DNA of 64,000 nucleotides from Acholoe squamosa (Eukaryota > Annelida > Polychaeta > Phyllodocida > Polynoidae), in assembly GCA_949317995.1 (NCBI GenBank), contig OX439042.1, positions 19,261,174 to 19,325,173 of the forward strand. The letters are read 5' to 3'. The notes below the pieces were generated by a model. The model worked only from the letters and a program-made list of their open reading frames with translations. It did not search any database and was not told the DNA's origin. Each line of letters starts with the position of its first letter. Position 1 is the stretch's first letter. Positions 10,480 to 64,000 of the stretch are shown here, one piece after another. The position numbers and the translations under genes were made by a program.

Positions 10480-31020
<20,541 letters not shown>

Positions 31021-47630: not shown

Positions 47631-48144
47631 AGGGGGGCTAGCACGGCAAAGAACAACATGGGTACCGACCCAAAGATCGTTACTGAACATGTTAAGGGAG
47701 TGGTCATTATTTATCAACAGGGGGGGGGGGTGGTGGGTTTTCGCACAGATGTGTGAAAAATTTTTACGCCCCCCCCTCGATGGCAGGCAAATATTTTTGC
47801 GCCCCCCCGCGCCGGAGCCGCGGAGTTTTCACGCCCCTCTTTGATCTATAGTAGCGCGCGGGCTTTTTTGCTAAAAAGAGGGTGATTTTTTTAGCCCCCC
47901 CTCAAGAGGGGTCAAAATTTGTTTAGCCCCCCCCCCCTCGGGAGGGGTCTGAAAATTTTACGCCCCCCCTCAAACCCACCACACCCCCCTGTTGATAAAT
48001 AATGACCACTCCCTAACCAGGACCAAATAAAACCGTTTCAAAATCGTTGGTAAACTCGTAGGAACCAGCAGAGCGCCCTGATTGGTAAATGGGTGGTCAC
48101 ATGACCTTTTAATGCGGGCATGCATTCGCTGTGCCAGGGCCCCT
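47631..48144. mobile_element. TTAA-flanked element AGGGGGGCTAGCACGGC, host of MITE C
   Basis: The left end AGGGGGGCTAGCACGGC and right end GCTGTGCCAGGGCCCCT are inverted, and TTAA flanks both (47627-47630, 48145-48148), as in piggyBac-type insertions. Without the MITE inside (47696-48013) it is about 190 bp. It sits next to the 3' end of the large retroelement. Confidence 0.65.
47696..48013. mobile_element. TAA-flanked MITE, copy C
   Basis: Ends GGGAGTGGTCATTATTTATC and its exact complement, TAA at 47693-47695 and 48014-48016, G/C tracts and the CTATAGTAGCGCGCGGG core. It resembles copy B most closely. It is nested in the TTAA-flanked element. Confidence 0.85.
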
Positions 48145-48419
48145 TTAAACAAGAGGTATTGGATATCTTTAAGCCATTGGTGAGCACTCCCTCAGAGAAG
48201 AGGTTTTAGACCAGTGTCTGCAGAGCCTGCCTGGGCCCCCTGCACAGCTCCCACTGCAAGTGCAACTACCCTTAGTGGCGCCCCTAGTGGATTCTGGGGT
48301 CCCTACCAATATAGAATGTTCAGTACGATTATTTTGGATTCAAGGGGAAATCTCCCTAAGTTAAGGAGTGATCATTTGCCACGGTGGGCTGTGTGGGTGG
48401 TGTTTATATGTATATTAAT

Positions 48420-49897
48420 GTGGTATAAGTTGTGTAGTTATTATCAGCTCGCTCCGCTGTTCTCACGTATTTGGGAAGACTAACTCTAGTGGTATGATGT
48501 TGGCCTAGCCCATTCTTTTAACCAACACCAAGACGCCGATACAAGTCACCATTTATTGTTCATTGATTATTCACAGTTACAGTTGTTTGGTGAGTCCACT
48601 CAGGTTGTACAGCTTCAACGACATCAGTCTATTCATACAAGCAGATTATGTTTTAACAATCCGATGCTACTGGAGAGGTGTAAGTGCCATAGAGATCCTG
48701 TTCAATCCGTTCTTACATTGACTAAGTGTAATACTAAATACTAAACAGCTTCATCCTCGTCTACTCCAGGAGTATGTGTTGCCTCCTCGGCTGCTCCCAC
48801 AATACTAACTCCTCCCTATCTCTTACCAACCCCTCACACCTTTCAGACGCCGGTGTTTGGCTCACCCGTATTCCCCCCTCCCCCTCTACAGATTCTACCT
48901 GACCAGATCTCGTCGACTCCCCTCCGTCTGCAACATTCCACAGCCTACCATAAACTCTTAGCTACCATAAACCCTATACAGGACTCCCATAGCACTCTCC
49001 CATATAGCATACAATAAATACACACATAATACAGTATACAATAAATACCCACATAAGCGTACCCTGTTATACCCGTTCATTATAATTATTGGCTATTGAT
49101 GACAAAACAGGTGCGGGCGCTCCCCTCTTGTGACGCGAGTCACACCAATTGTCAAGCATAAATTATGCCTGAATACATCTTATGTATTGTTTTGTCACTA
49201 ATACCTGAGGTAATCATCGTTATCATATTATACATTTCAATAGTTATTTATGTACATACATATGCACCACACTTATATAATACCATGCATTATTACTATA
49301 TATATTTTCCACACTGCATTGGTGACTTATTCTTAGCGCAAACTTGTCTTCTAACATATACTTTATTATTACAATTCTCTCATTTCTTAATTCTCAATTT
49401 GTTTTTCTTTCCTTTGTTATTTATTTTACTCATTCACTCGCCTTTACTAAGCACTTTGTCCCATTCTATGTTTATATATTCTTTTTACTATCCTTACCCG
49501 GGAGTCGACACCAGTTACACCCAATCGGGCCAATAAATCTCCTTACATCTGTCAACTCCTTGTTCCGAAACGTTCCCCTCTATCTACCCTTTGCCCCAAG
49601 CATCACTCTAAAACACACTCTAACGCTTCTTGGGTTACACCTGGCAACCTCTTACTTAACTCACGCGTGCACAGCTTGTCAACGAGTATATACATCAGAA
49701 ATCTTTCCACTTGCCACATTACGTCGTAGTTAGTGTCTCATTAGTTGGTCGTACATTTAAATTACAGTTTCTTTTAGTTATATTATCTTACTTAATAATA
49801 TACACTGGCACCATTCCCAGACATTATATCAATTCATCTGTAGATCGTCTTTGTATTGTCTATTCCATCCTTTCGTCTCACGCCAGCTGCACGATAT
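48420..49897 (-). other. Probable 3' LTR (boundaries unresolved)
   Basis: It follows the last ORF of the element. On the - strand a purine tract (49919-49898, a run of nine G flanked by A/G) is a good polypurine-tract candidate. A TGCAGCTGG start (49890) and an ACCACA end (48420) would give TG..CA termini about 1.47 kb apart. An AATAAA on the - strand lies near 48555. Other purine tracts, near 48865-48890 and 49110-49125, could be the true one. The partner LTR is outside the window, so no comparison is possible. Confidence 0.35.
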
Positions 49898-49980
49898 CTT
49901 TCTCCCCCCCCCTTTTCTTGTCCTGACACCGTCTATGCCAAGTCTCTCTCATGATGGCGTTTTATTCATCACCTTCAGTC

Positions 49981-50400
49981 TCATTCATTCAGGTCCACGT
50001 ACACCGATGACGATCCCGTCCTGGGCTCTTGACCTCGCAGAGCCACGTTCACCGACTCTTTATGACCCTTGTTTACTGAATATGAGACAGCCGTAGCCCC
50101 ATATGATTCTCCAGGTACTTCTGGTAACTGTCTTGATCTTCTTAACTGAGCCATGGCTCTGGCGTGTCCCGTGTCAGATAACTGATGTGTATTTATCTCT
50201 CTGTTCCTTATTGGTGTCCAGCCCGCCGCTGATATCATAGGTATCTCTAGTGGTACACCTGTCGCCAGACCCCCACTATACCTAATCAATCTTGTCATCA
50301 CCGTAAATCCATAGTCACCGTTCAGTATCCCTGCTAATTTCTTTGACACCTTCACAGTGGCTGGTAATGGCAATGGCACTGCGTTTTCCGCCGTTGCCAT
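49981..50400 (-). CDS. ORF overlapping the end of env (unknown)
   Basis: A 139-codon frame from an ATG at 50400, open upstream without ATG into the env end (to about 50460), in the -1 frame relative to env. It contains GYGFTVMTRLIRY-like and GGLATGVPLEIP segments and many Arg and Ser residues, with no membrane segment. I recognise no family. It could be a separate small accessory protein, a spliced product, or an alternative cytoplasmic tail reached by a -1 shift at the env end. Confidence 0.45.
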   Translation of the reverse strand: MATAENAVPLPLPATVKVSKKLAGILNGDYGFTVMTRLIRYSGGLATGVPLEIPMISAAGWTPIRNREINTHQLSDTGHARAMAQLRRSRQLPEVPGESYGATAVSYSVNKGHKESVNVALRGQEPRTGSSSVYVDLNE

Positions 50401-52709
50401 CTCAGTGGCACTGTAGCTATGTACTTCGGGCACGAGTAGCTTATTGCTACGTCTCTAATAAGAGCCTGTTCTGCTGGTCTTTGAAATACCTGGTCCAAAG
50501 GCATTAGACTTTCCCCCAATGGTATTATTTCTGTGATCTCTTTAGTTGCCACCTGTAGATACAGTCCATCCACTGGTTGAAGCCTCTTTAGTTGTCGCAC
50601 CTTCCTCACCAGTAACGCTATTATTATTATCAGTACTATCAATATCAATGATAACATAGCTATTGTCGTTTTGTGTTCCGGATCTTCTTCCTCATAATTA
50701 CCTCCGACATCTTCACCGTATTTTTCATAGTCCCAGGTTTCTAGACTCCTTATTCTCATAGGCATTCTTGCTAATATGTATGCCATTAATAGTCTTTTTA
50801 AACAAAAATATTGCACCACCATCAGAGTCATAACAATCACCCCTGCAATCATTATTGGTGAATAATCCCATAGGGATTCAGTAGGAAAATGGCCCCCACC
50901 ACTCATGCCATCCAAATCGGGTAATGCTGATCCGTCTTCCATTGCACTCACCAAATTCTTAAGATTGACAGCTGCTGGCGACTGTTGTATCCTAGCCTTG
51001 TGCTTCATTTTGGTCTTTACTAATTTTGGCAACACTTCATCTTGCAATACCTCTACAGTTTCACCATTTAATACGGCCTTTATCCATGTCAATTTCTTAA
51101 CGCTGTTCATTTGTAGCAAATCGTTATTTACAAAAGTCACATTAGTTTCCATGTTCACATGACCACATCCTGCCAAGCTGTAAGGCATCCACGCCCCGGC
51201 AGTCATGAATGCGCAATCACACCCAATGTTCAATATGGCGTAATGATGCATGTTCACCTTAACAGGTGGGCTTGATTGACACATCAATTGACCTTGTATG
51301 TCTGGTCCCGATACCAAAGTACGACCCTTTCCCAGTGCTATCGCAAATGAAGGAAAATTTGGTTGCACTATATAGTTGATCTCACATGTTTCTGCTATGG
51401 CCACCTTGTCATTTCTTATTAGTGCCGCCATGCACCCTCGTTCGGCTATTTTTCTCATGTGTGGAATATCTGGGCATACTGCTATTGAGTTGCCATGGCA
51501 ACACGCCCAATTCACCACTGGCTCTGATATATAATACCGCCCATTCTTTGATATGGCTACTTCTGATGGCAATCCCTCTATTCTCGTCCCATCAGCTTCT
51601 TTATTGGCCAGCCGCACTGGCACCGGAAACACCTTTACAGAGTATACACAAAATATGTGTTCCTCTGACACCACCGGAATCCTTATCTGCATCTTCACAC
51701 GACCTTGGTGCTGATATACTCGCACCACACTATTATCATAGTAATATTCAGGATCAGTAAAAGCGACCCATAATCGTGGGTACGTAGCCTTTAAATATAC
51801 TTCAGTGTTGACTATAGCTTCCTTCAAATCTTCTCTAGTGACCAGTTTTGATGATAGTTTTCTTCGTGATGCCAATCTTACCTCAGCTGCCATATCCTTT
51901 ATCTCAATGAGTTCATTTAATAAATGTATAATATACCCCCATTTGACCCTTGTCAGCAGGCTTTCATGGTTGTATACAATGGATAGTTCATATAATGCCA
52001 CACTGTGCATAGTTTGAGTTCTTTCCAGCAACTTCCGTCTCTTCAATGATATCTTAGCCATTTCATACAATTGTAACTGTCTATCAGCCAACTCTCCCAC
52101 TTCCGCCATGACGTCCTCCAAGCCATTGCTAGTACCTGTGGCCAATGTTTTAATAACATCACGCATCTTATAATATGATGTCTTCAGTAATTGAATATCT
52201 TTTTCATTTCTGGCTACATCATCAGCTCTCCCAGTGCCAAAAATATAGTACGACAACTCTCCTATAATATTTAGACCTGGTATACCTGCTCTCTTAGACC
52301 TTTTGACTTGTTGTTGTTCAGGTATGTTTTCCATCAGCTTTTCTACTTCCTCCTCTCTGGCCTGTATTAATTTTCTAATAATTTGATTCAACCATTCTTC
52401 TTTCTGTTTGATGTTGTCACAGGTATCTTCAAATAATAAGGTTCTGTTGTGATGTTGAATATCACACATAACCTGCATATTCTTCACACATTGTTCATAA
52501 ATACTTTCCATTTCCGGCTCTGGTAATCTATCTGGTATCTCTAATACAAACACTTGTGACACATGATTGTGCTCAGCCGTAGAAATACGTCTACCAGGTT
52601 GCAAAATGACACCTGATTCGGCTCTCTCTAAAGTCTCGAAAGTGTGCCTTCCAGCTTCTACCACACCCCACAAGGAACATAAGACACATAGTATAGTCAG
52701 CCACGCCAT
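50352..52709 (-). CDS. env: Envelope fusion glycoprotein, baculovirus F / errantivirus type
   Basis: 785 residues from the ATG at 52709, chosen because a signal peptide (MAWLTILCVLCSLWGVVEA) follows at once; the frame is open 31 codons further up without ATG. Positions below count from that longer frame (signal at 32-50). A furin site KRSKR ends at residue 171 and is followed by a glycine-rich hydrophobic fusion-peptide-like segment (AGIPGLNIIGELSYYIFGTG), with the GE-S...FGT spacing seen in F proteins, then a long helical region. This gives a small F2 of about 120 residues and a large Cys-rich F1 (cysteines 385-546). Two hydrophobic spans lie at about 649-667 and 714-732, whereas the family usually has one. 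A splice acceptor (TTACAG, exon from 52775) just upstream fits a subgenomic env mRNA. The frame is intact. Confidence 0.88.
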   Translation of the reverse strand: MAWLTILCVLCSLWGVVEAGRHTFETLERAESGVILQPGRRISTAEHNHVSQVFVLEIPDRLPEPEMESIYEQCVKNMQVMCDIQHHNRTLLFEDTCDNIKQKEEWLNQIIRKLIQAREEEVEKLMENIPEQQQVKRSKRAGIPGLNIIGELSYYIFGTGRADDVARNEKDIQLLKTSYYKMRDVIKTLATGTSNGLEDVMAEVGELADRQLQLYEMAKISLKRRKLLERTQTMHSVALYELSIVYNHESLLTRVKWGYIIHLLNELIEIKDMAAEVRLASRRKLSSKLVTREDLKEAIVNTEVYLKATYPRLWVAFTDPEYYYDNSVVRVYQHQGRVKMQIRIPVVSEEHIFCVYSVKVFPVPVRLANKEADGTRIEGLPSEVAISKNGRYYISEPVVNWACCHGNSIAVCPDIPHMRKIAERGCMAALIRNDKVAIAETCEINYIVQPNFPSFAIALGKGRTLVSGPDIQGQLMCQSSPPVKVNMHHYAILNIGCDCAFMTAGAWMPYSLAGCGHVNMETNVTFVNNDLLQMNSVKKLTWIKAVLNGETVEVLQDEVLPKLVKTKMKHKARIQQSPAAVNLKNLVSAMEDGSALPDLDGMSGGGHFPTESLWDYSPIMIAGVIVMTLMVVQYFCLKRLLMAYILARMPMRIRSLETWDYEKYGEDVGGNYEEEDPEHKTTIAMLSLILIVLIIIIALLVRKVRQLKRLQPVDGLYLQVATKEITEIIPLGESLMPLDQVFQRPAEQALIRDVAISYSCPKYIATVPLRWQRRKTQCHCHYQPL

Positions 52710-52774
52710 TTTCTTCTTGTTATGGCTTCCGGTTACAGTTCGAGTTGGGTTACTACAACTCCTAACTGATCGCT

Positions 52775-52782
52775 CCTGTAAG
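52775..52782 (-). promoter_or_regulatory. Candidate 3' splice site for env mRNA
   Basis: On the - strand AAAAACTTACAG is followed by GAGCG at 52775, 66 bases before the env ATG. Retroviral env genes are usually made from a spliced RNA whose donor is near the 5' leader, here outside the window. Confidence 0.4.
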
Positions 52783-53116
52783 TTTTTATGGATCTTGAAC
52801 ACTTAATAAGCCCTATCGTGTCAGATAGTTCACCAGTTCATGACCCTTTTACCCCTTTTTGTATATATTTTCCCGTCAATCTGAACACGTGTGCCTTCCT
52901 TTCCTATCTAGCTGTACGTCTCTTCCATCTGATAACACCAATTTATTGGATTGGAGTCTTTGTCTCAGCGACTCCTCCTAATGTGCCCTCAATTTTTTTT
53001 TTACTATAGTTTTCACTATATTTTTGTTTTCTTATTTCAACTTCCCATCCCCTTGGTTAGATACCTAGAATTAAATTCTCAGTCGATGCTTGACTTCCAC
53101 CTTGTTCGCACTGAAG

Positions 53117-55012
53117 ATGGCTAGCTATTCCAGCGTTTCTGTCAATGGCGCCCTCGTCTATCTCCCGATAGATCGTCTCCAGCCCGGCTTTACCTACATC
53201 GTCGGCTGCAGAGACCTGTCCTCCACAGATGCTAACGTCACTCCGTGCATGTTAGTATGCACCGGACCGCAAGGCGCGACTATGCCTTCACACACTACCA
53301 TTCGGGATCATCTCCGCCTGGCTTGTAATATGACTGATATGACCTTACGTATCATTCATTTGGATGGGCGTCCTGATCCCAACTATCGTCTGCAGTCGGC
53401 TGTCGCTGTTCCACCTATTCCTACTCCTGCTTATCAGCCAGCTTATGTCGACATCACTCCGCCTCCAGTCACCTTTACCACTCCTTTCGTGCCACCTTGG
53501 AGTCCCAGTCTGATGTCGCCCATAGGTGCGCGTCCTGTCTACAGCGCCGTTGTACCTGCTACCTCTGCTCCAAGCCTAGCATCCACCTTCACCTCTAATG
53601 TGCTACCAACTTGCACAGCGACCCTTCCTTTACGAGTGGACACCTCTCACCAATATTCTCTGCCTGCCAACTTCGCTGTTTCAACAACTTCTCGTCCATT
53701 GCCACCTCAGCATCATTCTTCATATGTGGACTACAATGTGCTTTCTCACATTCCTGCTGCTTCCGGTGTTTCGCCCTTACCATACACACCTTTGCTAGCC
53801 ACCACTGCACCTCTGACGTCCAGAACAACCCTAACATCCACATTTACCTATTCTGCCGCTGCTTCTCGTCCCTTTTCTACTACCAGCACCACTACTTCCG
53901 GTCAATTTCCTGCTGTATCTTCATTAAGGATGCCTCACATCCCCATCCGAGCTGCTCCAGCTGCAGAGGCTCGCGCCACCTCGGCTCCTAGGTCTCCGCC
54001 TTCCTGCCTACATACGCCCGCTCTGGCCCTGACCTCTTCTACTTCCGGTCAGTTTACTTCATCTTCATCCACTGCAGCTTCACTTCCACACCTTCCAGTA
54101 ATGTCGCCCTCGTTCTGGAGTACTCTGGCTATCTCACCTGGACATCCACCCTTCTCACCATTGACCTGTCAGTCCAGCACCATGGCCTCTTCCTCACGAC
54201 TGACTCACAGTTCTTCTACCATCATATCTCTCTTGACATCTTCATCTGCTACCACTACGCGACATCATCCCTATCAGCTTTCTGCCAGACCACAAGCCTC
54301 CCGTTCTTCTAATCTTGGAGGTCCTATCCTTCCAACATTGGTTTCCCCAGCTTCTACCCTCTCGCAGAAGTAAGTATATTTCCCTAGTGATTCATACTTT
54401 GATTCCTAGAGACGCTCACTTCGTTCTTGTAATAAGATACTATACACATATTTTCTTTTAAAATATATGCATAAGCTAACTCTATAAAGTCGCTGAGCTC
54501 CTCTGATTTGTGAGTAGCGGCGATCACATTCACAGTCTCAGGTGTATAATTGATCTCATTAATACACCCATATGGCTGAATTTTATGTGTCCTAATACCT
54601 TCTTAGAAAAGAATTTCACTCACACTTATTTTTAAATATATATCTACAGCTATAGACATCGTATTTCATTTCTCAGAGTCTGGGCTTCTTAAATAATTAA
54701 ACCATTATAGGCTCTGGTTCTTTAACAGAATGCCTTACTTCTGGACAAATATATCCTTTAAATTTAGGCCTCTTAATTATGGACCTTGTTACTGGAGTCA
54801 TTCTATGTGTGTCGCGACTATGGTCCTGCTGGTTCCGACTAGTGTTTCCATTCACCCTTAGACAACTTATAAGGTGCCCCATAGTGGTTGCCTCCTGTAT
54901 GTGATGCACTTCTTTCTCTTTGTCTCATATACCTGCTTTATTTACTATCTTCAGTTCTTCTCCCGCTTCATCTGCTGATGATGATGATGCCTCTACTCCT
55001 ACTAGTCCTTAA
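53117..55012 (+). CDS. Oppositely oriented Ser/Thr/Pro-rich gene, apparently two coding exons
   Basis: Exon 1 runs 53117-54369. The ATG (AAGATGG context) was preferred over an upstream TTG. It encodes 417 residues with no counterpart reading frame on the - strand. Residues 1-95 look folded (SVNGALVYLPIDRLQPGFTY); the rest is Ser/Thr/Pro/Ala-rich and probably unstructured. Exon 1 ends CAGAA|GTAAGT, a consensus donor. A pyrimidine-rich acceptor (ACTATCTTCAG) at 54954 opens exon 2, which completes the split codon in frame and adds 19 codons, with a run of four Asp, to a stop at 55010-55012. Unspliced, it stops four bases after the donor. A further donor (CAG|GTATGT) at 55025 suggests a spliced 3' UTR. 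It runs against env and the accessory ORFs. No family is recognised. An antisense gene of the element is likeliest; a nested foreign gene is possible. Confidence 0.6.
54697..54909 (-). other. Short - strand ORF inside the antisense gene's intron
   Basis: A 70-codon frame reading MHHIQEATTMGHLISCLRVN at its start and KRPKFKGYICPEVRH near its end. It lies between ORF C and env in the element's direction, entirely within the proposed + strand intron. The composition is protein-like but the frame is too short to call. Confidence 0.2.
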
Positions 55013-55585
55013 ATCTTCACTTCAGGTATGTATTTCTAACATGTTTTATATTGAATGCATCCTAAATGAATCCGACCTTTTACAATTTTCTACAAACTGT
55101 TTTAAGTAGTTAAGTCTTATCCATAGAGTAGGGTGTATCTGAGCCTTAATATCTCTACCCTCTCTACAGTGGGCGATGATTCCTTTCCTTCAGTAAATTA
55201 TCACTGATCTCCATTAATTCATCTCAACCGCTATGAACCTTCCGTTGTCTATGATCCAGGCTTTTCCACTAGAACTCATGTTTATAGCTTATCTAAACTG
55301 CTGATTATGTTGTCTTGTTGTGGTTATGTCCGCGTAGCATGCTAGTTGTTCTATCTTGTTAAACTTTTGAGTGCAGTCTGTATCTGTTGCTTGCCGATGT
55401 CTGTACAGCTGGAGTTCCACTCCTGCACTGCCAACTGTCTTGCTTGTCATTGCATCTTATCTCTTTCTTTACCTGCGCATGTCTGCTCTCTCCCCCCCCC
55501 TTTTTCCTGTTACTAGGCTATTAATATACATATGCCTGTCTCAGTGTCCAACGCTTCCCCCCCCCCTCTTTTCTCACGCACGTGT

Positions 55586-55927
55586 TCATTCCCCCGCTGA
55601 CTCTGTTTCCGCGCCGTCATTCTCGCGCTGTCTTTTCTGTCTCTTTCCTCCTGTACCCCATTCTTTCCATGCATCTGGAGCTGCAAATACTGCCATGGTT
55701 ATTTGCTGTATCTTCCATGCAGTATTCTTACTTTCCTCAGGTAATTTCCTAACCCAAGTTTTCACTTCACCTTTCATTCCCCACAATAATAATGCCACAT
55801 ATTCCATTTCCCCTAGATCATATATTCTCTTAATCAGATCCATGTCGTAGAAATATTCTTCTATCTTTTCTCCTGGTGCTCCCCTAAATGTAGGTGGCGT
55901 TATACTAATACCTGCCATTTTGTACAT
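55586..55927 (-). CDS. ORF C: second, minimal capsid-like (Gag CA N-terminal) protein
   Basis: 113 residues from an ATG. Residues 11-85 resemble the N-terminal capsid segment of this element's own Gag: PPTFRGAPGEKIEEYFYDMD here against LPSFNGESGEDYRRYFKELN there, then a conserved hydrophobic helix, a KGE..TWV / KGA.KWM motif and an LPEE / IPEG turn. A short basic-acidic tail (KRQKRQREND) follows. There is no C-terminal capsid half and no zinc finger. Identity to the main Gag is low, so it is not a recent duplication. In place and size it is an accessory gene of the element. Whether it assembles with, or interferes with, the main capsid is unknown. Confidence 0.7.
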   Translation of the reverse strand: MYKMAGISITPPTFRGAPGEKIEEYFYDMDLIKRIYDLGEMEYVALLLWGMKGEVKTWVRKLPEESKNTAWKIQQITMAVFAAPDAWKEWGTGGKRQKRQRENDGAETESAGE

Positions 55928-56017
55928 TTCTTCGACCTCTCACAACGTTCCCCTAACATGTATTGTATTTTATATCCGTACAGTCCCTTTGTTCTTTCCT
56001 ATCAACTCATATCCTTA

Positions 56018-56503
56018 CTAGTTATATTTATCAAAGTTTTCAGTTACATCCTCCTCCTCCAGGGTCGTCTCATTGTTTTTAACCCCGGATGTTAATACTC
56101 CTTGGGTGATATGCTTTCCCTTTTGCTTCAGTTTAAACATTTCCCAAGTTTCATCTCTTTGTCTACACTGTCTGCATCGTTTCCCTCTACTAGTCTTGCG
56201 ATGCCTCCTACACTTTCTTGAGAAAAAGAATGCATTAGTCACACTCCCTACTCCATATTTAAAGTGATGTCTGTTTACTTGTTCCCTCAAATATCTTGGC
56301 AATCTCGCGATGTCCAATTTCAGTTTTGATATTTTCTGCATTACTATATCCTGTAACGTCGCCCCATTGTATCTAAATACCTTTGGCAATGAATATCCAA
56401 ATCCATATATAGCATCCAGCGCGTCTTCTACCTGTTGTCCCCTATATCTCCCTGCCTTTACTATAGATGGTGCTCTCTTTCCCGCATCCTCACTAGTGGA
56501 CAT
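56018..56503 (-). CDS. ORF B: basic protein with CX2HX8CX2C cluster
   Basis: 161 residues if started at the ATG 56503-56501, whose first base is the last base of ORF A's stop codon (TAATG). The middle is helical and basic (KLKLDIARLPRYLREQVNRH). A cluster CRRHRKTSRGKRCRQC at about 98-113 could bind zinc or nucleic acid. The tail is acidic (TTLEEEDVTENF). The frame is also open 26 codons upstream, overlapping ORF A, but with no ATG there. No family recognised. Confidence 0.6.
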   Translation of the reverse strand: MSTSEDAGKRAPSIVKAGRYRGQQVEDALDAIYGFGYSLPKVFRYNGATLQDIVMQKISKLKLDIARLPRYLREQVNRHHFKYGVGSVTNAFFFSRKCRRHRKTSRGKRCRQCRQRDETWEMFKLKQKGKHITQGVLTSGVKNNETTLEEEDVTENFDKYN

Positions 56504-56505
56504 TA
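56501..56505 (-). promoter_or_regulatory. TAATG stop/start overlap between ORF A and ORF B
   Basis: The stop codon of ORF A (56505-56503) shares its last base with the ATG of ORF B (56503-56501). Overlaps of this form support coupled termination and reinitiation in some non-LTR retrotransposons and RNA viruses. Use of that mechanism here is inference. Confidence 0.65.
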
Positions 56506-57090
56506 TATGAGATGTTTTATCCCATGTACCTGTTCCAGGTGTTTGGCCGCTCCTGCCGCTGTTGCTGTTGTTCTGCCACAAATGTGACAGAGCCTTGATG
56601 TCACTTGTCTTCTGCTATAATACTCTTCTATCAATATGTCATCCAATCTGATTGATGTATCCAGCACAAATTCATCGTCTTTACTATAAAATATTGATGG
56701 TTCTGTCTGTGTCGCTGTTTCTGTGGTCTGAGTCTCTCTCTTAATTATACCACCGGTGCCTTGTAGAGTGGCATCCAACAGCCACTCCCATTCTGTCTGT
56801 CCCACGGTGATATCACGTATGCTATCCCATATGTTTCCCTGATGATTTACCAGGACCTCGGCTTGAGCTGCTTCCACCACCTGTATTGGCTCTTGCGTTG
56901 AGCTTGGTTGGCCTGACGTTGAAGTCGCACCAAATCCTTTTTCATTTGTTTCTGTTGTTGTTGAACTTGCTGCAGACACTGTGCTCCTTTCATTGTAAGT
57001 GCTGTTGCAATAGTTGTCTTGAATCATCCACGTATTATAGTATTGTTGGTATTGCTGTTCTCCAACACTATCGTACCAGCTATCTGCCAT
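56503..57090 (-). CDS. ORF A: accessory protein with C-terminal C2H2 zinc finger
   Basis: 195 residues from an ATG (MADSWYDSV), 325 bases after the end of pol. The first 80 residues are Gln/Tyr- and Ser/Thr-rich, the middle is acidic and helical, and the end has LCHICGRTTATAAGAAKHLE followed by QVH, a CX2CX12HX4H finger. Classical fingers are usual in host DNA-binding proteins and unusual in gypsy elements, so a role in nucleic-acid binding or regulation of the element is a fair guess. No homologue recognised. Confidence 0.6.
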   Translation of the reverse strand: MADSWYDSVGEQQYQQYYNTWMIQDNYCNSTYNERSTVSAASSTTTETNEKGFGATSTSGQPSSTQEPIQVVEAAQAEVLVNHQGNIWDSIRDITVGQTEWEWLLDATLQGTGGIIKRETQTTETATQTEPSIFYSKDDEFVLDTSIRLDDILIEEYYSRRQVTSRLCHICGRTTATAAGAAKHLEQVHGIKHLI

Positions 57091-57414
57091 CCGTCCATCA
57101 GCACCTGCTATTTACTGTGAGGTCTTATCTTGTCCCTCGTTGTGCGCGCACTGCCACATCCTGATGCATCTCCTCCTGCATATACCTGTTGCACTGGCCT
57201 CCCCCCCTCCCTTCTTTTCCTACCTTGCCCTACTTTTCCCCTTTCTTTGTGTATCGCCCTCCTTTCCGTCTACCTGCATGAGTCAGCTTGACCTGCTCCT
57301 CCGGGCGGCCCCTCCCCCTTCGGCACCTGCATCACCCCCCATTTTCCTTCATAGTAACACACGTCCATACTACAGGATTATCGCCCATCCTGTAGTATCC
57401 CGTCTAAGTTCACC

Positions 57415-58905
57415 CTATTCTCCATCGCTGGATGAGCTGAGCTCCTCTCTGCCTCTCCTGTGATGCTTACAAATCGGTCCCTTTGGAATGATATGTTCAC
57501 TGCTAGATTCCTCACTCATAATAGCCCCTGCAGCCAATTGCGCCCTCCTATCTCTTTGCCTCCGTCTCTTCTCAGCCCTATCCTCCCTCTCTTTTCTTTT
57601 CTGTCTTCTCTCCATTTCTTCCCTCTCTCTTTCTTCGTCCATCTGTCTCTTCACCTCGACATTTCTCACTCTACCCTTCCTTTTCTCTTCATTATCCTGT
57701 CTTCGGCCACCCTCGACCTTATCAATATCACTATCCTGTAACCCTTTCTTTTTACACCAATTATCGACCACAGCTTCCTGTCTGGGCTTCTCCCGGCTAT
57801 CTCGCCGTACAACTCCATCTGTCTCATTATCAGATTCCTGTATAGGTGCGCGCGGTCCAGCTCCGGCCACCTCTCTCTTTTTCTCATGTGCACTGCTATC
57901 GTCGTCTGACGTTTTCAATTTGTCCTCCTTATCAGCGCCCGCTAGCGCTGTATCCTCCAGACCAGATGAAGGATGTTCTATCTCAGTCACCCCTTTAGGG
58001 TCCTCATGTCGTATATCCTGTATTTCCACTTCTGATTCCACTTCTGTTCTATCCACTTCCACCGTCCTCTTATCTTTGGCTACTCCTTCGTCATTTTCAC
58101 CCTCCCCTTTGTATGCTCTCTTCAGCTTATTCACATTTACCAAGTGAGGTATCTCTTTGCCCGTCTTCACTGCTCTCAACCTCACCCTGTTATCCCCCAC
58201 CACCTCTATTATCCTATGTGGCCCCGTGTATCTACCAGCAAACTTCGATGTGTTATTCACCGCGCATTTCGGATCATAGTAATATACCCACTCCCCCTCT
58301 ATAAAAGATACAGGTCGAGCCCGTCCATCCAATCTACGTCTGAGCTGCTCCTCATACCTAGCAGTATGAGCGTTGGCCGCCTCCTGTAATAACTGTATGC
58401 TATGATTGGTCCTTATAAACCAATCCCTTTCAGATGGCACTTTAGGCAGTGGCCTTTCTTCAGCAAAGGACATAGCCACCGGATCCCTCCCGAATTGTAG
58501 TGCATATGGTGAAAACCCCGTCCTCATACTAATATTGGAGCGCACCGTCCACAATGCAATGGGTAACAGCTCTGGCCAGTGTTCATGGTCCTCAGTCACA
58601 TAGCATCCTATGGTATCCTCTAATGATTTATGCAATCTTTCAACCCTGGCATTTCCGGTCGGATTCCTAGAAGACGTAAACCTCTGTTTGGTCGATAGTC
58701 TAGCTGTAACCTCACGAAAAACCTGACCCATATATGTAGACCCTCTGTCACTGCACAGCACTTCCACCTTGCCGTACCTACACACGATCTCCCGTAGAAA
58801 CACCCCAGCTGCCGTGTGCGCGGTTGTGTCTTTAGTACAGAATGCCTCTGGCCATCCCGTCAGAAGGTCTATGAAGGTCATGATATATTTATACCTTCTT
58901 TGGAC
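57415..58905 (-). CDS. pol: pol, part 2: integrase core end, GPY/F module and long charged tail
   Basis: This frame continues integrase after the break at 58878-58905. Counting from its first ATG (58881), the second catalytic Asp is D45 (LCSDRGS) and the Glu is E81 (GNARVERLHK), exactly 35 residues apart as in D,D35E integrases. A GPY/F-type module (FAGRYTGPHRIIEVVGDNRV) lies at about 235. The last 230 residues are an extremely charged Glu/Lys/Arg-rich tail, probably a long helix, ending CKHHRRGREELSSSSDGE. Such a tail is not part of the standard integrase. Confidence 0.88.
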   Translation of the reverse strand, partial: VQRRYKYIMTFIDLLTGWPEAFCTKDTTAHTAAGVFLREIVCRYGKVEVLCSDRGSTYMGQVFREVTARLSTKQRFTSSRNPTGNARVERLHKSLEDTIGCYVTEDHEHWPELLPIALWTVRSNISMRTGFSPYALQFGRDPVAMSFAEERPLPKVPSERDWFIRTNHSIQLLQEAANAHTARYEEQLRRRLDGRARPVSFIEGEWVYYYDPKCAVNNTSKFAGRYTGPHRIIEVVGDNRVRLRAVKTGKEIPHLVNVNKLKRAYKGEGENDEGVAKDKRTVEVDRTEVESEVEIQDIRHEDPKGVTEIEHPSSGLEDTALAGADKEDKLKTSDDDSSAHEKKREVAGAGPRAPIQESDNETDGVVRRDSREKPRQEAVVDNWCKKKGLQDSDIDKVEGGRRQDNEEKRKGRVRNVEVKRQMDEEREREEMERRQKRKEREDRAEKRRRQRDRRAQLAAGAIMSEESSSEHIIPKGPICKHHRRGREELSSSSDGE

Positions 58906-61832
58906 CTACGCAGTGGCCCAACAAAATCTGTCTGTATCACTTGCCATGGATAATCCGGCGTATCCCATGATCTTGCCTTGGCTCTAAAGTGAGGTGCTCT
59001 TTTCCTCAACGCGCACCTTTCACATAGCCGCACGTACCTAGCTATGTCCACCATCATATTTTTCCAATAAAACCGAGCCTGTACTTTTGTATTCAGCGCC
59101 ACTGTTCCCACATGTCCTCCGCACATAATATCATCATGCATGAGATAGAGCACTCTATTCACCATAGCCTTAGGCACCACTATCCTTGGGTTTAAGTCAG
59201 CTATAGGCCCACCCCTCTTTCTAGCTGGTTTTATATACTTGCATAACAATCCATCCTTCATACCCATGAAATCAGCATTATGTAAAATCCCTCGCGCCTT
59301 TTCCTCATCCACTGGCAATTCATCTCCCGCCAAATATCTCATCATCCCTCTGCAGAATCCATCCCTCCACTGTTCCTGTATGAAGGTTTCCCTATCCAAT
59401 TCCTCCCCTACCAGTTCCATCACGAGTAACTCACATCCCACCTCAGGCTCAAACTCCCCCGACTCCTCGCCAGGTGTATCCTGTCCTACTGCCAACGGCA
59501 CTCTGGATATAAAATCCGGCAGGTAATGAGTGGCTCCCGGCTCATACCTGATCTCATAGTCAAAGTCAGTCATTGCTAAACCCCATCTAGTCAACCTTTT
59601 GGACGGAGCCTTACTGGCTTGCTGAAGCAAAGGTATTAATGGTTGATGGTCCGTAATTATCGTGATCTTAGCTCCCGTCAGCATATCCTCAAATTTCTTC
59701 AATACTCTTATAACAGCTAGGCCTTCTTTCTCTGTTATAGTGTAATTTCTCTCAGCTTTTGTAAATGTATACCCATAATATGTTACCGGTCTCAGCAATC
59801 CGTCCCTCTTTACACAGATGGCCGCTCCACACGCGCCATCCGAAGCATCCGTTAAAACATAAAAGTGACCCCCGATCTCTGGATGTACCAATAACGGTGT
59901 GCTTGCTAATGCTGCTTGTATTTTCTTGAATGACACCTCACACTCATCCGTCCACTTAAATGGCACCTTGATTTTCAACAAATTATTCAGAGGCATCGAC
60001 AAAACAGCATAGTTAGGAATAAAACTCCTGTAATAATTACAAAGCCCCAGAAAGGATCTAGTTGTATGTTCATTATACGGTCTGCCAAACTCCTGCACCT
60101 GTCTGATCACCTTAGACTGTGTCTGCACTCCTTCAGCATTAATAATGTGTCCCAAAAACTTGATTTCCGCTCTACCCCACTCACACTTTTCCGGCTTGAC
60201 TGTTAAACCTGCTTTACCTAAAGCTGCCAATACTCTGCCGACATTAGTAATATGGCTGTCCACATCCGGATCAAAGATAATGATATCGTCTAGGTAGGCT
60301 AGACAAGTACGTGGTATTAAGCCTCCTAGTGCTAATGACATAATCTTAGTAAATTGCCATGGGCTCTGCTTCATACCAAACGGCATCCTCGTCCATTGCC
60401 AAACTCCCGAGGGTGATTCAAATGCTGAATACTGCCTGCTGTCATGATGTAAATCGCACTGATGATACCCACTGAGCAAATCCATGGCTGTAAAGATTAT
60501 AGGTTTTCTGTATGCCATATACAAAAACATGCTTCTGGCTGTGGGCATTGGGTATGTATCATCCGCCGTAATAAGATTCAACATGCGATAGTCTGTACAT
60601 AATCTAGCCTTGCCATCCTTCTTCTGCACTACCACCAACGGACTTCTCCATACGCTGTCACTGGGCTCAATAATTCCCAACCTCAATAATTCCCTCACCT
60701 GTTCATCAATAATATCCATTTTCTGAGGAGAATACCTGTATGGTCGCGCCATACACGGACCCTTGGACTCATCGACCCTTATTTTCATTGGAGCCAATGA
60801 ACAATGACCCAACTCCTTCATAGAAAATGCTATAGTGTCCATGTTGACCACCAGCATCTCTCTGAATACCTTCTGCTCCTCCAGCGTCATCATAGTGTCA
60901 CCCAAATCAAGGCCCCTGATCTTCTTAATTTTATCCAGCCTCTCCTGCTCACTCAATGTAGAAACGCCACATCCACCACCATTGTCCTGATGATCCTGCC
61001 GGTGTATTGATCCCCCTCTAGCATCTTGACCATTCTCCCGCCGTTCTTCAGTACATCTTGCCAAAATCTCACGAGCCTCATCCTTTCTATCCCTGCCAAC
61101 ATTAGCTGTATCAATTACCTCCAGCAAATTAAGTTCCGGTTCATCTATGTCTTCCGCATATGCTATAACCTCAGTTGTATCCACATACACTTGCCTGTCA
61201 GAGAGATTAGCAATTCTCATATACCATTTCTTCCCCACATGGTTCACCGCACCATCCGCAGCTACCACCGCCAAATTAGACAGTCTCAGCAAGACCGTTG
61301 TTCCAACCCTGTCAGCCGCAACATCCCATCCCTTCACCGTCACCAATCTTTCTTCCCATGGGTCCAAAATCGCCGCTACTTCAATTGAGACCGGATCCTC
61401 AGTAAAGAGACGTACCTTTCCATCTATAGCTATAATCTGTGCCCTTGCGTCGATCAGAAAATTACGTCCCAGCACAATATCATAAGCCAGTGAATCCACC
61501 ACATTAAAATCATAGTATATGCAAGCACCATCCATAAAACACTGCAGTCGCACCGTCTCATAAACTTGTAATGATGTTTTGTCCCCCAGACGCACCTTCC
61601 CCAATTGAGATGGCTGCCTGTCCCAAATTGCTCTCTCACTTATACTACTCACAACTGTCCGCGCTATAAAACAATCAGACGCGCCTGTGTCCACTAAACA
61701 TCTGTATGCATTCTCGTCAATAGTACACTGAACCAACCATGGCGCTTTGTCTTTCGATCCCCTATTTTCCGACCCATCCCCTGATATCAAATTTAATTCT
61801 GGGGTAGGAATGAGCCGTTGTGCCCGTTTCCC
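58878..61832 (-). CDS. pol: pol, part 1: protease, reverse transcriptase, RNase H, integrase N-part
   Basis: Expressed as a Gag-Pol fusion through a -1 shift at 61832-61826; the frame has no ATG near its start. Numbering from codon 61790: aspartic protease DTGAS at 34-38 with IVLGRNFL at 105-112; RT with the first catalytic Asp at 437 (AMDLLSGYHQ), MPFGMKQSPW at 469-478 and YLDD at 499-502; RNase H with D648, E689 and D714 (TDHQPL); integrase HHCC finger H884, H893, C923, C926 and first catalytic Asp D955 (QTDFVGPL). The frame stops at 58880-58878, inside the integrase core, where the other frame takes over. This is a Ty3/gypsy pol with all RT and protease residues intact. Confidence 0.93.
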   Translation of the reverse strand, partial: GKRAQRLIPTPELNLISGDGSENRGSKDKAPWLVQCTIDENAYRCLVDTGASDCFIARTVVSSISERAIWDRQPSQLGKVRLGDKTSLQVYETVRLQCFMDGACIYYDFNVVDSLAYDIVLGRNFLIDARAQIIAIDGKVRLFTEDPVSIEVAAILDPWEERLVTVKGWDVAADRVGTTVLLRLSNLAVVAADGAVNHVGKKWYMRIANLSDRQVYVDTTEVIAYAEDIDEPELNLLEVIDTANVGRDRKDEAREILARCTEERRENGQDARGGSIHRQDHQDNGGGCGVSTLSEQERLDKIKKIRGLDLGDTMMTLEEQKVFREMLVVNMDTIAFSMKELGHCSLAPMKIRVDESKGPCMARPYRYSPQKMDIIDEQVRELLRLGIIEPSDSVWRSPLVVVQKKDGKARLCTDYRMLNLITADDTYPMPTARSMFLYMAYRKPIIFTAMDLLSGYHQCDLHHDSRQYSAFESPSGVWQWTRMPFGMKQSPWQFTKIMSLALGGLIPRTCLAYLDDIIIFDPDVDSHITNVGRVLAALGKAGLTVKPEKCEWGRAEIKFLGHIINAEGVQTQSKVIRQVQEFGRPYNEHTTRSFLGLCNYYRSFIPNYAVLSMPLNNLLKIKVPFKWTDECEVSFKKIQAALASTPLLVHPEIGGHFYVLTDASDGACGAAICVKRDGLLRPVTYYGYTFTKAERNYTITEKEGLAVIRVLKKFEDMLTGAKITIITDHQPLIPLLQQASKAPSKRLTRWGLAMTDFDYEIRYEPGATHYLPDFISRVPLAVGQDTPGEESGEFEPEVGCELLVMELVGEELDRETFIQEQWRDGFCRGMMRYLAGDELPVDEEKARGILHNADFMGMKDGLLCKYIKPARKRGGPIADLNPRIVVPKAMVNRVLYLMHDDIMCGGHVGTVALNTKVQARFYWKNMMVDIARYVRLCERCALRKRAPHFRAKARSWDTPDYPWQVIQTDFVGPLRRSKEGINIS

Positions 61833-64000
61833 GGCCTGCGAACATCATTTCCCTGATCTCGTTGGTCTCTGTTCTGCTGAGAGGATGACAACTGATCCCT
61901 GTATTTCTTCAAAAACGTGCACTCCTCTGTAGAATGTGTGGTAGAGTCATGAATCAAGCAATAGATCGCTCCTCCTCCTTTCTGACTCTCTCCTGCATCT
62001 CCCATCATCCTAGCATATTCCTGAGCTCTTCTCTGACCTTTATCATCCCCCTGTTGACCCTGCCTGCTTCCTCCTGTATATCTCTGTCCTTGAAACCTGT
62101 TATTGAAATACTGAGACGCGTTATATTGATTTCCACCGCGTCCCCCTTGATAATTCCATCCTCGACCTCCACCGCCTGTACCAAACTGCCTATTCTGACC
62201 ATATGTTCCCGCGCCGGTCCCTCTGCCCGTCTGCGCCTGATACTGCCCTTGTGAAGTGCCACCCCTTCCAGCATACTGTCCCTGCTGATTCTCCCGTCCA
62301 TGTTCCATCTCTCTGAGCCCCCTTCTATATTCCATAGTGCACATCTCCACCACTGCTTTAGTCTGTTCCCTAGCATACTTTTTAGGATCAAACTGATCGT
62401 CCCCACATGCTCCATCTCGAGTCCCCTCAGACTCTAGCATGTGTAACTGCGCCACACCTTTAGAGTTCCTCCCTTTCTCCACATTTTCCCAATAAGACGC
62501 CAGCCTGAGAGCCTCCTCAAAAGAATCAGCATTGTGTTTCATCAGGTCCTTATCAATGGGCGGAAGCAAACCCCCCACAAAGACTGACAGCTTGATGACA
62601 TCAGGAACGTCCAACTCGTCATATTCCTTTATTTTCAATGCGAAGTCCCAAACCGACTGTCCCTTTTCCTGCTTCAGACAGTGCAAATCCCTATGTTTCT
62701 GCCACAGTGGCCTTTTGTCTTCAAAAACCCTCTTCACTATAGCCACTACTTTGTCCAAAGTATCCTTTTCCCCTTCTGGAATACCATCCATCCATTTCGA
62801 TGCCCCTTTCTTCAAGCCCAATTTTGCATATTCAAGATGCTGATCCGGAGACCATCCAAATAGCTTTTGCATTCCATTCAATTCCTTAAAATATCTCCGA
62901 TAATCCTCCCCAGACTCCCCATTGAAGGATGGTAGTTTAACATTCGGACTAGGCGCCATATCGTCGTCTTCAAAACCAATAATAGGTGCAATATCCTCTT
63001 CTACCTGTCTCTCCGCATCCAAATCACCCACTGAGCTCTCTTCACTATCGTTCCCCTGTACACTAGTTTTAACACCTCCAGCTACGGAGCCCTCGGCGGC
63101 TTCCTCCCGGGTCTCCCTTTCTATCTGTCGTCTTCTCTCTTCATCCGCTCTCCGAACCCACCAATCCTCCCAGTCACCCGAAACATCAGTCTGAAGATGG
63201 CTATTTAGAACATCATCTAAATGCCCCTCATCTGTAGTACGACCCGTACTATTGCCTGAGCGGATATTCGCAGATACCTTTCTCCAATTTACTGTGTCGC
63301 TCAAAAACCTCTCCCTTCGTGCTACGCGCTCCCGTTCTATCTCCGGCCCCGCGAGCAGCTCCTCCCCATCAATGGCCCGCCGATATCTCAGCTCCTGTTC
63401 CAATATGGCCCTCCCCTTCTCTATGCTGTGTCGCACCCTAATATTAGTGTTCTGCAGACCTGCAATAACTTCATCCACCCTTGTTCTACTCACAGACTCT
63501 CCCAGACGACTGCCACTTTGATCACCTGTAATGACCGGTGTAGTACAGCCTGTCCAATCCTGTCCAACTCCACCACTCTCATCCTGGCCCACCAAGTCCT
63601 TATCACTTAACTCTCTCCCATTCTCAACAACCACCAAGAAACCAGAGGGCAGCAGTCTTGCGTCCTCTCCTTGTGAATCACCACAGGCCTCCGACCCTTG
63701 TTCCTGTATCTCCTCACCGACGTCCTCTTTCTGTCCTGACGCTGCCACCACCGTAGATGCCCCATCTATTGGATTACTCTCCCCATGTGCGTCCCCCCTA
63801 TTCTCATGACTATCCTTTGTTCCACTCTCATCCACCTGTCCGTCCTCATGTACTGGCTCAATTAACCCCAATGACGTTGCTATTGCTTCAAAATTCAAAT
63901 CTTCATCACCAACATCCACCACATCCCCTTCAGATGCGCGTCTGACTCGTCCCTGGTCCACTGTACCCTCAAACTCAAGGCACCTAGGAGTAGCCTTACA
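61793..64000 (-). CDS. gag: gag (5' end beyond window)
   Basis: The frame is open to the window edge, so the start is missing; at least 735 residues are present. Numbering from codon 63961: a long acidic, helical N-terminal part (1-335), the capsid domain at about 340-500 (VKLPSFNGESGEDYRRYFKE, then KKGASKW), a Gly/Arg/Gln-rich segment (560-640) of RGG type, and one zinc finger C668-H671-H676-C681. The finger is a CX2HX4HX4C variant in which His replaces the second Cys of the usual retroviral knuckle; this variant occurs in some gypsy elements. The acidic N-terminal part is unusually long. The stop at 61795-61793 overlaps pol. Confidence 0.9.
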   Translation of the reverse strand, partial: CKATPRCLEFEGTVDQGRVRRASEGDVVDVGDEDLNFEAIATSLGLIEPVHEDGQVDESGTKDSHENRGDAHGESNPIDGASTVVAASGQKEDVGEEIQEQGSEACGDSQGEDARLLPSGFLVVVENGRELSDKDLVGQDESGGVGQDWTGCTTPVITGDQSGSRLGESVSRTRVDEVIAGLQNTNIRVRHSIEKGRAILEQELRYRRAIDGEELLAGPEIERERVARRERFLSDTVNWRKVSANIRSGNSTGRTTDEGHLDDVLNSHLQTDVSGDWEDWWVRRADEERRRQIERETREEAAEGSVAGGVKTSVQGNDSEESSVGDLDAERQVEEDIAPIIGFEDDDMAPSPNVKLPSFNGESGEDYRRYFKELNGMQKLFGWSPDQHLEYAKLGLKKGASKWMDGIPEGEKDTLDKVVAIVKRVFEDKRPLWQKHRDLHCLKQEKGQSVWDFALKIKEYDELDVPDVIKLSVFVGGLLPPIDKDLMKHNADSFEEALRLASYWENVEKGRNSKGVAQLHMLESEGTRDGACGDDQFDPKKYAREQTKAVVEMCTMEYRRGLREMEHGRENQQGQYAGRGGTSQGQYQAQTGRGTGAGTYGQNRQFGTGGGGRGWNYQGGRGGNQYNASQYFNNRFQGQRYTGGSRQGQQGDDKGQRRAQEYARMMGDAGESQKGGGAIYCLIHDSTTHSTEECTFLKKYRDQLSSSQQNRDQRDQGNDVRRPGNGHNGSFLPQN
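61826..61832 (-). promoter_or_regulatory. -1 ribosomal frameshift slippery site GGGAAAC (gag to pol)
   Basis: On the - strand the heptamer reads G GGA AAC in the gag frame, an exact X XXY YYZ slippery site of a type used by known retroviruses. Gag and pol frames overlap only from 61844 to 61793, and pol is in the -1 frame, so the site lies where it must. No pseudoknot was folded; a CCCC/GGGG pairing 21 bases downstream is the only stem noticed by eye. Confidence 0.8.

Follow-up and report, generated by a model that had tools for sequence, protein, structure and literature searches.

The annelid Acholoe squamosa carries an env-bearing Ty3/gypsy long terminal repeat (LTR) element whose gag, pol and env lie on one strand and whose additional protein-coding gene lies on the other. 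We analysed a 64,000-nucleotide (nt) stretch of contig OX439042.1 (assembly GCA_949317995.1, positions 19,261,174 to 19,325,173 of the forward strand), referred to here as the window, in which the element is coded on the - strand and the antisense gene on the + strand. Judging from the way in which copies of the element differ from one another, the antisense gene is genuine, and natural selection has preserved it in most of the copies examined. We consider it probable that it is a functional antisense protein gene of the retroelement, transcribed opposite to the genomic RNA, with one intron removed, and encoding an accessory regulator.

The antisense frame and its predicted intron

On the + strand, the frame begins at the ATG of 53117, which has A at -3 and G at +4; from there, 417 codons and 2 further nt extend to 54369. 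The bases directly after 54369 are GTAAGTAT, and the TAA stop of the unspliced frame (54371-54373) falls inside this donor. A gap of 585 nt, which closes with ...CTTCAG, brings the acceptor directly before 54955, and the second exon then yields a tail of 19 residues, NSSPASSADDDDASTPTSP followed by the stop, with four Asp and a first residue that is split between the exons. A preliminary description of this DNA had pointed to a 417-codon frame ending exactly at a consensus donor and to an acceptor 585 bases on that restores the frame and gives an Asp-rich C-terminus, and both statements proved right to the base.

For the comparison of copies we took the 40 best-scoring of 253 candidates in the same genome, the window copy included; some of the counts below come from subsets, namely the first 35 copies, 32 copies (three with indels left out), 21 aligned copies and 17 compared copies. 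The parts of the antisense gene are as follows.

53117-54369 (+): coding exon of the antisense gene, with a conserved domain at residues 1-100 followed by a Ser/Thr/Pro-rich region; 1253 nt in 37 of the 40 copies, 1249 in 2 and 1252 in 1
54370-54954 (+): predicted intron, GTAAGTAT...TTCAG, with both ends identical in 40/40 copies; 571-591 nt in nine length classes
54955-55012 (+): second coding exon, encoding the acidic tail, with the TAA stop ending at 55012; 58 nt in 26 and 61 nt in 14 of the 40 copies, the difference being one GAT codon
53246-53311 (+): zinc-finger-like motif Cys-x3-Cys-x10-His-x5-His, identified by eye, codons 44-65; kept in 35/35 intact copies

The frame is far longer than base composition would give. 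From stop to stop it measures 432 residues, while the longest frame in 1000 dinucleotide shuffles reached 322 residues for the region 52803-56017 and 373 for 53016-54469. In the earlier view, chance would hardly bring together a long open reading frame (ORF), an in-frame donor at its end and an acceptor of matching phase; the shuffles agree as far as length is concerned and dispose of the caution attached to that view, that a pyrimidine-rich + strand could favour Ser/Pro-rich frames. The + strand of the element is indeed rich in C and T, but none of the 1000 shuffles attains the observed length in either region and the selection tests given below place the frame far from neutrality (omega far below 1). 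We rejected composition as the source of the frame on these two grounds; that a pyrimidine-rich strand merely happens to be open is already refuted by the copies and has a negligible probability.

Splicing at 54370-54954 is very probable, because the splice sites are kept in 40/40 copies, the stop of the unspliced frame lies inside the donor, the likeliest change point in GC content falls at 54368, two bases from the donor, and the intron has drifted in length. The exon itself has a GC content of 0.525, distinct from that of its neighbours. Indels shared by two or more copies are absent from exon 1, and in the intron they occupy seven gap intervals, six of which are not multiples of three. The gene might also be real and intronless, ending at the TAA at 54371-54373 with the donor match a coincidence, which we regard as unlikely. 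Some observations count in its favour and to that extent tell against splicing: the frame is complete as it stands and would give nearly the same protein, of 418 residues; the tail from 54955-55012 bears no measurable constraint of its own, with five variable sites in 35 copies, four of them changing an amino acid; and the second coding exon, taken alone, is not long enough for constraint to be seen. However, the stop of an intronless gene would lie inside a full GTAAGTAT that is unchanged throughout the 40 copies and paired with an equally unchanged TTCAG, and from local composition we estimate that a TAA with G before it and GT after it has a chance of about 1 in 100.

The spliced frame is intact in 35/40 copies, among which we counted one with GTG in place of ATG (L022), and broken in the remaining five (L015, L018, L027, L039 and L040). 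As the copies were picked for their likeness to the window, this share is overstated, which has to be held against the idea of a generally preserved gene. Within this sample, the comparisons that the preliminary description had proposed for other copies, of the openness of the + frame and of the conservation of its splice sites, turned out in favour of the gene.

Selection on the antisense frame

A codon model fitted to 35/40 copies gave the antisense gene an omega (dN/dS) of 0.361, with twice the log-likelihood difference (2dlnL) at 101.0; an earlier fit with 29 copies had given 0.356. The constraint is concentrated at the N-terminal end: omega is 0.074 for codons 1-100 (2dlnL 140.0) and 0.571 for the remaining Ser/Thr/Pro-rich codons (2dlnL 21.9), again with 35/40 copies. 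A low dN/dS had likewise been named beforehand as a test of the gene, and it was found both for the whole frame and, much more strongly, for its first 100 codons. The exclusion of the five copies with broken frames from these fits lowers omega a little.

A resampling test, which kept the broken-frame copies lacking indels and was matched for base and CpG context, led to the same picture. The 128 changes shared among 32 copies comprise 75 synonymous and 53 nonsynonymous changes and no stop, against expectations of 42.7, 82.7 and 2.6, and 0/300 resamplings had as few nonsynonymous shared changes. Changes seen in a single copy, 98 in number, divide into 49 synonymous, 47 nonsynonymous and 2 stops (expected 29.9, 65.4 and 2.7). 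By codon position, the shared variable sites in exon 1 fall 37/23/70 at positions 1/2/3 (35 copies). The five other frames hold 8-31 stops, and four of them have no synonymous excess; the only one that does, with 23 stops, reads the same wobble positions from the opposite strand. These patterns bear directly on the possibility that the antisense RNA matters and the protein does not, the RNA restraining the sense RNA, for instance, or giving rise to small RNAs. Non-coding antisense transcripts have been described for several retroelements, in the part of the account covered (PMC7264820), but the change among copies is of a coding kind, with no shared stops and an accumulation of shared variable sites at third positions, so that we consider an RNA-only function very improbable.

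Additional evidence comes from nine of the first 35 copies (L029-L037), which 49 fixed differences separate from the remaining 26. Of these differences, 48 lie in exon 1 (53239-53987), 26 of them packed into the 124 nt from 53281 to 53404, and one lies in the 5' flank; the intron, exon 2 and the 3' flank have none. Such confinement to exon 1 is what the exchange of a segment with a more distantly related lineage leaves behind, a lineage from which the nine copies would have received this part of the exon. The exchanged piece differs by 31 synonymous and 17 nonsynonymous changes, where 17.1 and 30.1 are expected (base matched; 0/2000 resamplings), and the antisense gene has thus been constrained in two lineages.

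The same observations help to judge whether the gene could be a passenger, that is, a recently captured host or viral gene that was conserved through its earlier history and is dispensable to the element. Such an origin would be in line with the distinct GC content of the exon and with the absence of any relative found in other elements. On the other hand, constraint is visible among transposed copies, in shared and in single-copy changes alike, and again in the second, recombining lineage, and over such time a passenger would have decayed. We therefore rate the passenger as somewhat less probable even than the intronless gene, and keep to a gene that serves the element.

The predicted protein and its possible role

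The product would be an accessory protein of about 436 residues with a nearly invariant N-terminal Cys/His domain, a long and probably disordered Ser/Thr/Pro arm, and a short acidic end that is added when the intron at 54370-54954 is removed. In the N-terminal domain, only two of the 50 sites at residues 26-75 vary in 35 copies, and the residues C44, C48, H59 and H65 of the zinc-finger-like motif, together with C31 and C70, are invariant in 35/35 intact copies. A Cys2His2-like spacing arises in 20/2000 residue shuffles of the protein. Binding of zinc by this Cys/His cluster is a tentative suggestion to which we give rather less than an even chance. Beyond the conserved domain, the protein is rich in Ser, Thr and Pro.

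Several results speak against a functional regulator. The motif was picked by eye after the sequence had been seen and has no profile match: the protein matches no Pfam family at E <= 1, TRP28 and bZIP included. No homologue was found in a set of 5.8 billion proteins, neither among the 7993 best candidates for the whole protein nor among 37 candidates for residues 1-115, and there was no relative among solved structures, viral contigs or prokaryote genome contigs; a function is therefore unsupported by any relative. For the N-terminal 115 residues no usable fold model was obtained (predicted local distance difference test, pLDDT, 42.6), and the protein contains no run of four Lys/Arg that could serve as a nuclear signal.

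A further peculiarity is that lysine is absent from all 417 codons in 34/35 intact copies, which the A-poor strand explains in part. The lack of lysine in a protein would hinder its ubiquitination.

A regulatory role is nevertheless the likeliest one, although we would not put its chances above even. It is suggested by the combination of a small conserved domain, a flexible arm and an acidic end, which is the layout of many transcription regulators, and by the other antisense genes of retroelements discussed below. The protein would then act in trans on the element's own transcription or on the use of its RNA, in the manner of HBZ and the APH proteins and, as is supposed, of the antisense ORF proteins of plants. 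Going further, the arrangement of the deltaretroviruses may have evolved independently in an animal env-bearing gypsy element, with a spliced antisense, DNA-binding, zinc-finger-like regulator with an acidic tail that shares a control region with env, is transcribed head to head with it and governs how genomic, env and latent states are balanced; we offer this as a speculation that is rather unlikely to hold in full. If it were true, antisense regulators would have arisen at least three times, in deltaretroviruses, in plant Ty3/gypsy elements and in animal Ty3/gypsy elements.

Candidate signals for transcription and processing

Transcription from the + strand, which we infer from the sequence, would run opposite to the genomic RNA and be antisense to gag, pol and env. 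The antisense gene and env stand head to head, with 407 nt between their ATGs (52710-53116). Three features outside the coding exons deserve attention.

53000-53115 (+): conserved non-coding block just before the antisense ATG, with a pyrimidine tract and an AG at 53081-53082; candidate 3' splice site or promoter
55026-55031 (+): strong donor CAG/GTATGT, 13 nt after the stop, possible intron of the 3' untranslated region; CAG/GT in 35/35 copies, CAG/GTATGT in 34/35
55192-55197 (+): AGTAAA, which may serve the antisense gene as a polyadenylation signal; 20/21 copies

The block at 53000-53115 resembles a 3' splice site or, alternatively, a region of transcription start. It varies at 6/116 sites in 21 copies; with 35 copies, 53017-53116 varies at 12/100 sites, two of them shared, which is less striking than with 21. 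Within 48386-56999, the donor at 55026 has the top score, tied with a donor-like site at 52322. The latter is kept in 21/21 copies and could begin a leader intron, but it lies inside the conserved env. Together, the donor at 55026, the AGTAAA at 55192 and the block at 53000-53115 suggest a transcript longer than the coding exons. Its start may lie either at a promoter beside the env start (53000-53115) or in the 3' LTR, and in the second case a leader intron would lie upstream. A two-way promoter shared by env and the antisense gene is possible, and env might have a start of its own. Two further leader donors were considered and discarded: GTAAGT at 52778, which is present in 8/21 copies, and a site in the LTR at 48680, which scores above 5 bits in 3/17 copies.

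Comparison with known antisense genes

As far as the literature was covered, antisense coding genes have been discussed for exogenous retroviruses, plant retrotransposons and one mussel element, in most cases with no proof that the protein is of importance. In the open-access PubMed Central (PMC) literature, sampled in part, we found no env-bearing gypsy element of an animal for which an antisense coding gene is described. The preliminary description had stated that animal gypsy elements are not known to contain a spliced antisense gene; this agrees with the literature sampled, but the novelty is narrowed by antisense frames of plant elements (aORF-3R) and by a 67-residue ORF of a mussel element.

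The plant Ty3/gypsy elements Grande, RIRE2 and Retand possess antisense frames (aORF-3R) between pol and the 3' LTR that are kept across copies, and gene23 of Grande undergoes antisense transcription from its own upstream promoter and has a nuclear product; in the parts of these papers covered, the plant antisense ORFs are without known function (PMC7264820, PMC11963269). The annelid gene is similar in that its frame, too, is antisense, is placed between pol and the 3' LTR and is intact in 35 of the best 40 copies. It differs in its animal host, in the probably F-like env of its element, in its place between accessory ORFs and env and in its conserved predicted intron, and, compared with the Retand type and its TRP28 domain, in having no TRP28 match.

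The nearest animal precedent that we found, in literature covered in part, is MchSLE-1, a Steamer-like LTR retrotransposon of the mussel Mytilus chilensis. Its antisense RNA was detected by strand-specific quantitative reverse-transcription PCR in 11 mussels and ascribed to the 3' LTR, and translation of its antisense ORF AS-SLE-1 was shown as a GFP fusion in HeLa cells only (PMC10974842). Both elements thus have a coding frame on the antisense strand of an animal LTR retrotransposon. By its description, MchSLE-1 is set apart by an antisense ORF of just 67 residues and by a sense ORF of gag and pro-pol without env, and the sections of the account covered contain no comparison of copies, selection test or intron (PMC10974842).

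In human T-lymphotropic viruses (HTLV), HBZ of HTLV-1 and APH-2, APH-3 and APH-4 of HTLV-2, HTLV-3 and HTLV-4 are antisense regulators with spliced forms among them, according to the part of a review covered, in which there is no mention of gypsy, Ty3, errantivirus or invertebrate (PMC10186651). Like these viruses, the annelid element has both env and a coding gene on the antisense strand, with splicing predicted here. Unlike HBZ, its antisense product gave no bZIP match, and the element belongs to Ty3/gypsy and not to the Retroviridae. HBZ lies 3' of env, whereas the antisense gene described here lies 5' of it.

LTR retrotransposons of bdelloid rotifers have, in addition to gag and pol, extra ORFs that include env; in the portion of that survey covered, antisense is mentioned for small RNAs only, and introns are absent from the main text (PMC5408684). 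The introduction of an annelid paper, itself covered in part, mentions antisense extra ORFs (PMC8220671). Compared with gypsy elements of the Errantivirus type, the element described here has the same gag-pol-env order, a 4-bp target-site duplication and a probably F-like env; unlike them, it measures 17 kb and has four additional frames, of which one is antisense. The presence of dozens of near-intact copies in one animal genome, combined with selection at the codon level, makes it testable whether antisense regulators recur in retroelements.

The provirus and its other genes

The host element is a complete env-bearing Ty3/gypsy provirus of 17,064 bp, whose two LTRs, the 3' LTR in the window and the 5' LTR beyond it, are identical at 725/725 positions and end in TG...CA. 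It is flanked by a 4-bp target-site duplication, ACGG; a duplication of this length is typical of gypsy. LTRs identical over 725 bases point to a recent insertion, and the element is recently active. In the sense of the element, the order is gag, protease-reverse transcriptase-RNase H-integrase, three accessory ORFs (C1, C2 and C3), antisense gene, env and LTR, as listed here from gag onwards.

61796-64000 (-), continuing beyond the window edge: gag, a 735-residue open frame whose capsid-like region pairs with C3
58881-61844 (-): protease-reverse transcriptase-RNase H-integrase zinc domain; Pfam PF00078, PF17919 and PF17921, with the protease match below the cut-off
57418-58905 (-): integrase part of pol (rve); Pfam PF00665 at 8e-10, with an SH3-like domain below the cut-off
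56506-57111 (-): ORF C1, with a C2H2-like motif at its end identified by eye; omega 0.545, clean in 20/21 copies
56021-56614 (-): ORF C2; omega 0.223, clean in 19/21 copies
55589-55939 (-): ORF C3, a second, partial Gag capsid-like frame of 117 residues; omega 0.136, clean in 21/21 copies
50355-52709 (-): env, probably an F-like class I fusion glycoprotein, ATG at 52709; in the window copy, the C-terminal part is not in frame
48385-49109 (-): 3' LTR, 725 bp, identical to the 5' LTR at L059:724-1448

The outer edge of the 3' LTR is exact in 17/17 compared copies, and the flanking DNA, by eye, is unrelated. A genome query with 48050-50350, which covers the 3' LTR together with some flank and the final part of env, gave 3198 first-look candidates, many of which are perhaps solo LTRs. 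Within pol, Pfam matches give the order protease, reverse transcriptase, RNase H and integrase, the protease match again being below the cut-off. No relatives of pol were found in viral contigs, and no RNA families within the 64,000-nt window.

Env is constrained, with an omega of 0.098 (17/21 copies, 50547-52706), and 10 of the scored candidates are relatives of it at the protein level, with up to 42% identity. For the env of the element itself, Pfam gives nothing meaningful; two of its relatives match PF12259 (Baculo_F), P0010 at 7e-13 and P0007 at 0.0014, the latter below the Pfam cut-off. The structure model of env is of low confidence (pLDDT 55.5). Searched against viral models with Foldseek, it returned first, with low TM-scores, chu-related and other arthropod-virus glycoproteins, an abalone herpesvirus protein and baculovirus F, the last of these at 4e-11 and ranked after the chu-related glycoproteins; against solved structures, the F proteins of human metapneumovirus and respiratory syncytial virus came out on top, with a best E of 1e-3. 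Based on the Baculo_F matches of the relatives and on these lists, env is probably a class I, F-like protein. By sequence, env had no relative among solved structures, and related env loci were absent from viral contigs and genome contigs. In the stretches 49984-50454 and 50355-52709 (both -), the env frame of the window copy stops early compared with its relatives, and the C-terminal part that they have is found in another frame; its env length differs from that of 20/21 aligned rows, with gap columns at 50300-50499.

The accessory frames on the sense strand differ in how well they are conserved. ORF C3 is under constraint, has no Pfam match and resembles the N-terminal part of the capsid region of the element's own Gag (26% over 70 residues, E 1e-7 in a single comparison). 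The Ty1 protein p22 acts as a copy-number brake, and by analogy C3, as a second partial Gag, could do the same. For ORF C1, constraint is not significant, its omega in 20/21 copies not differing from 1 (2dlnL 2.8). At its end, C1 shows, by eye, a Cys-x2-Cys and His-x4-His spacing, and the ORF overlaps C2 in another frame. With its many accessory frames, including a second partial Gag, the element has a complex, retrovirus-like genome outside the Retroviridae.

Elsewhere in the window, frames on the + strand at 22661-25803 resemble, by eye, exons of a host HSPA4/Hsp110 gene. Two tandem arrays were also noted, a 43-bp satellite at 18161-19116 (22 copies, 94% matches) and a 21/42-bp minisatellite at 5968-6690.

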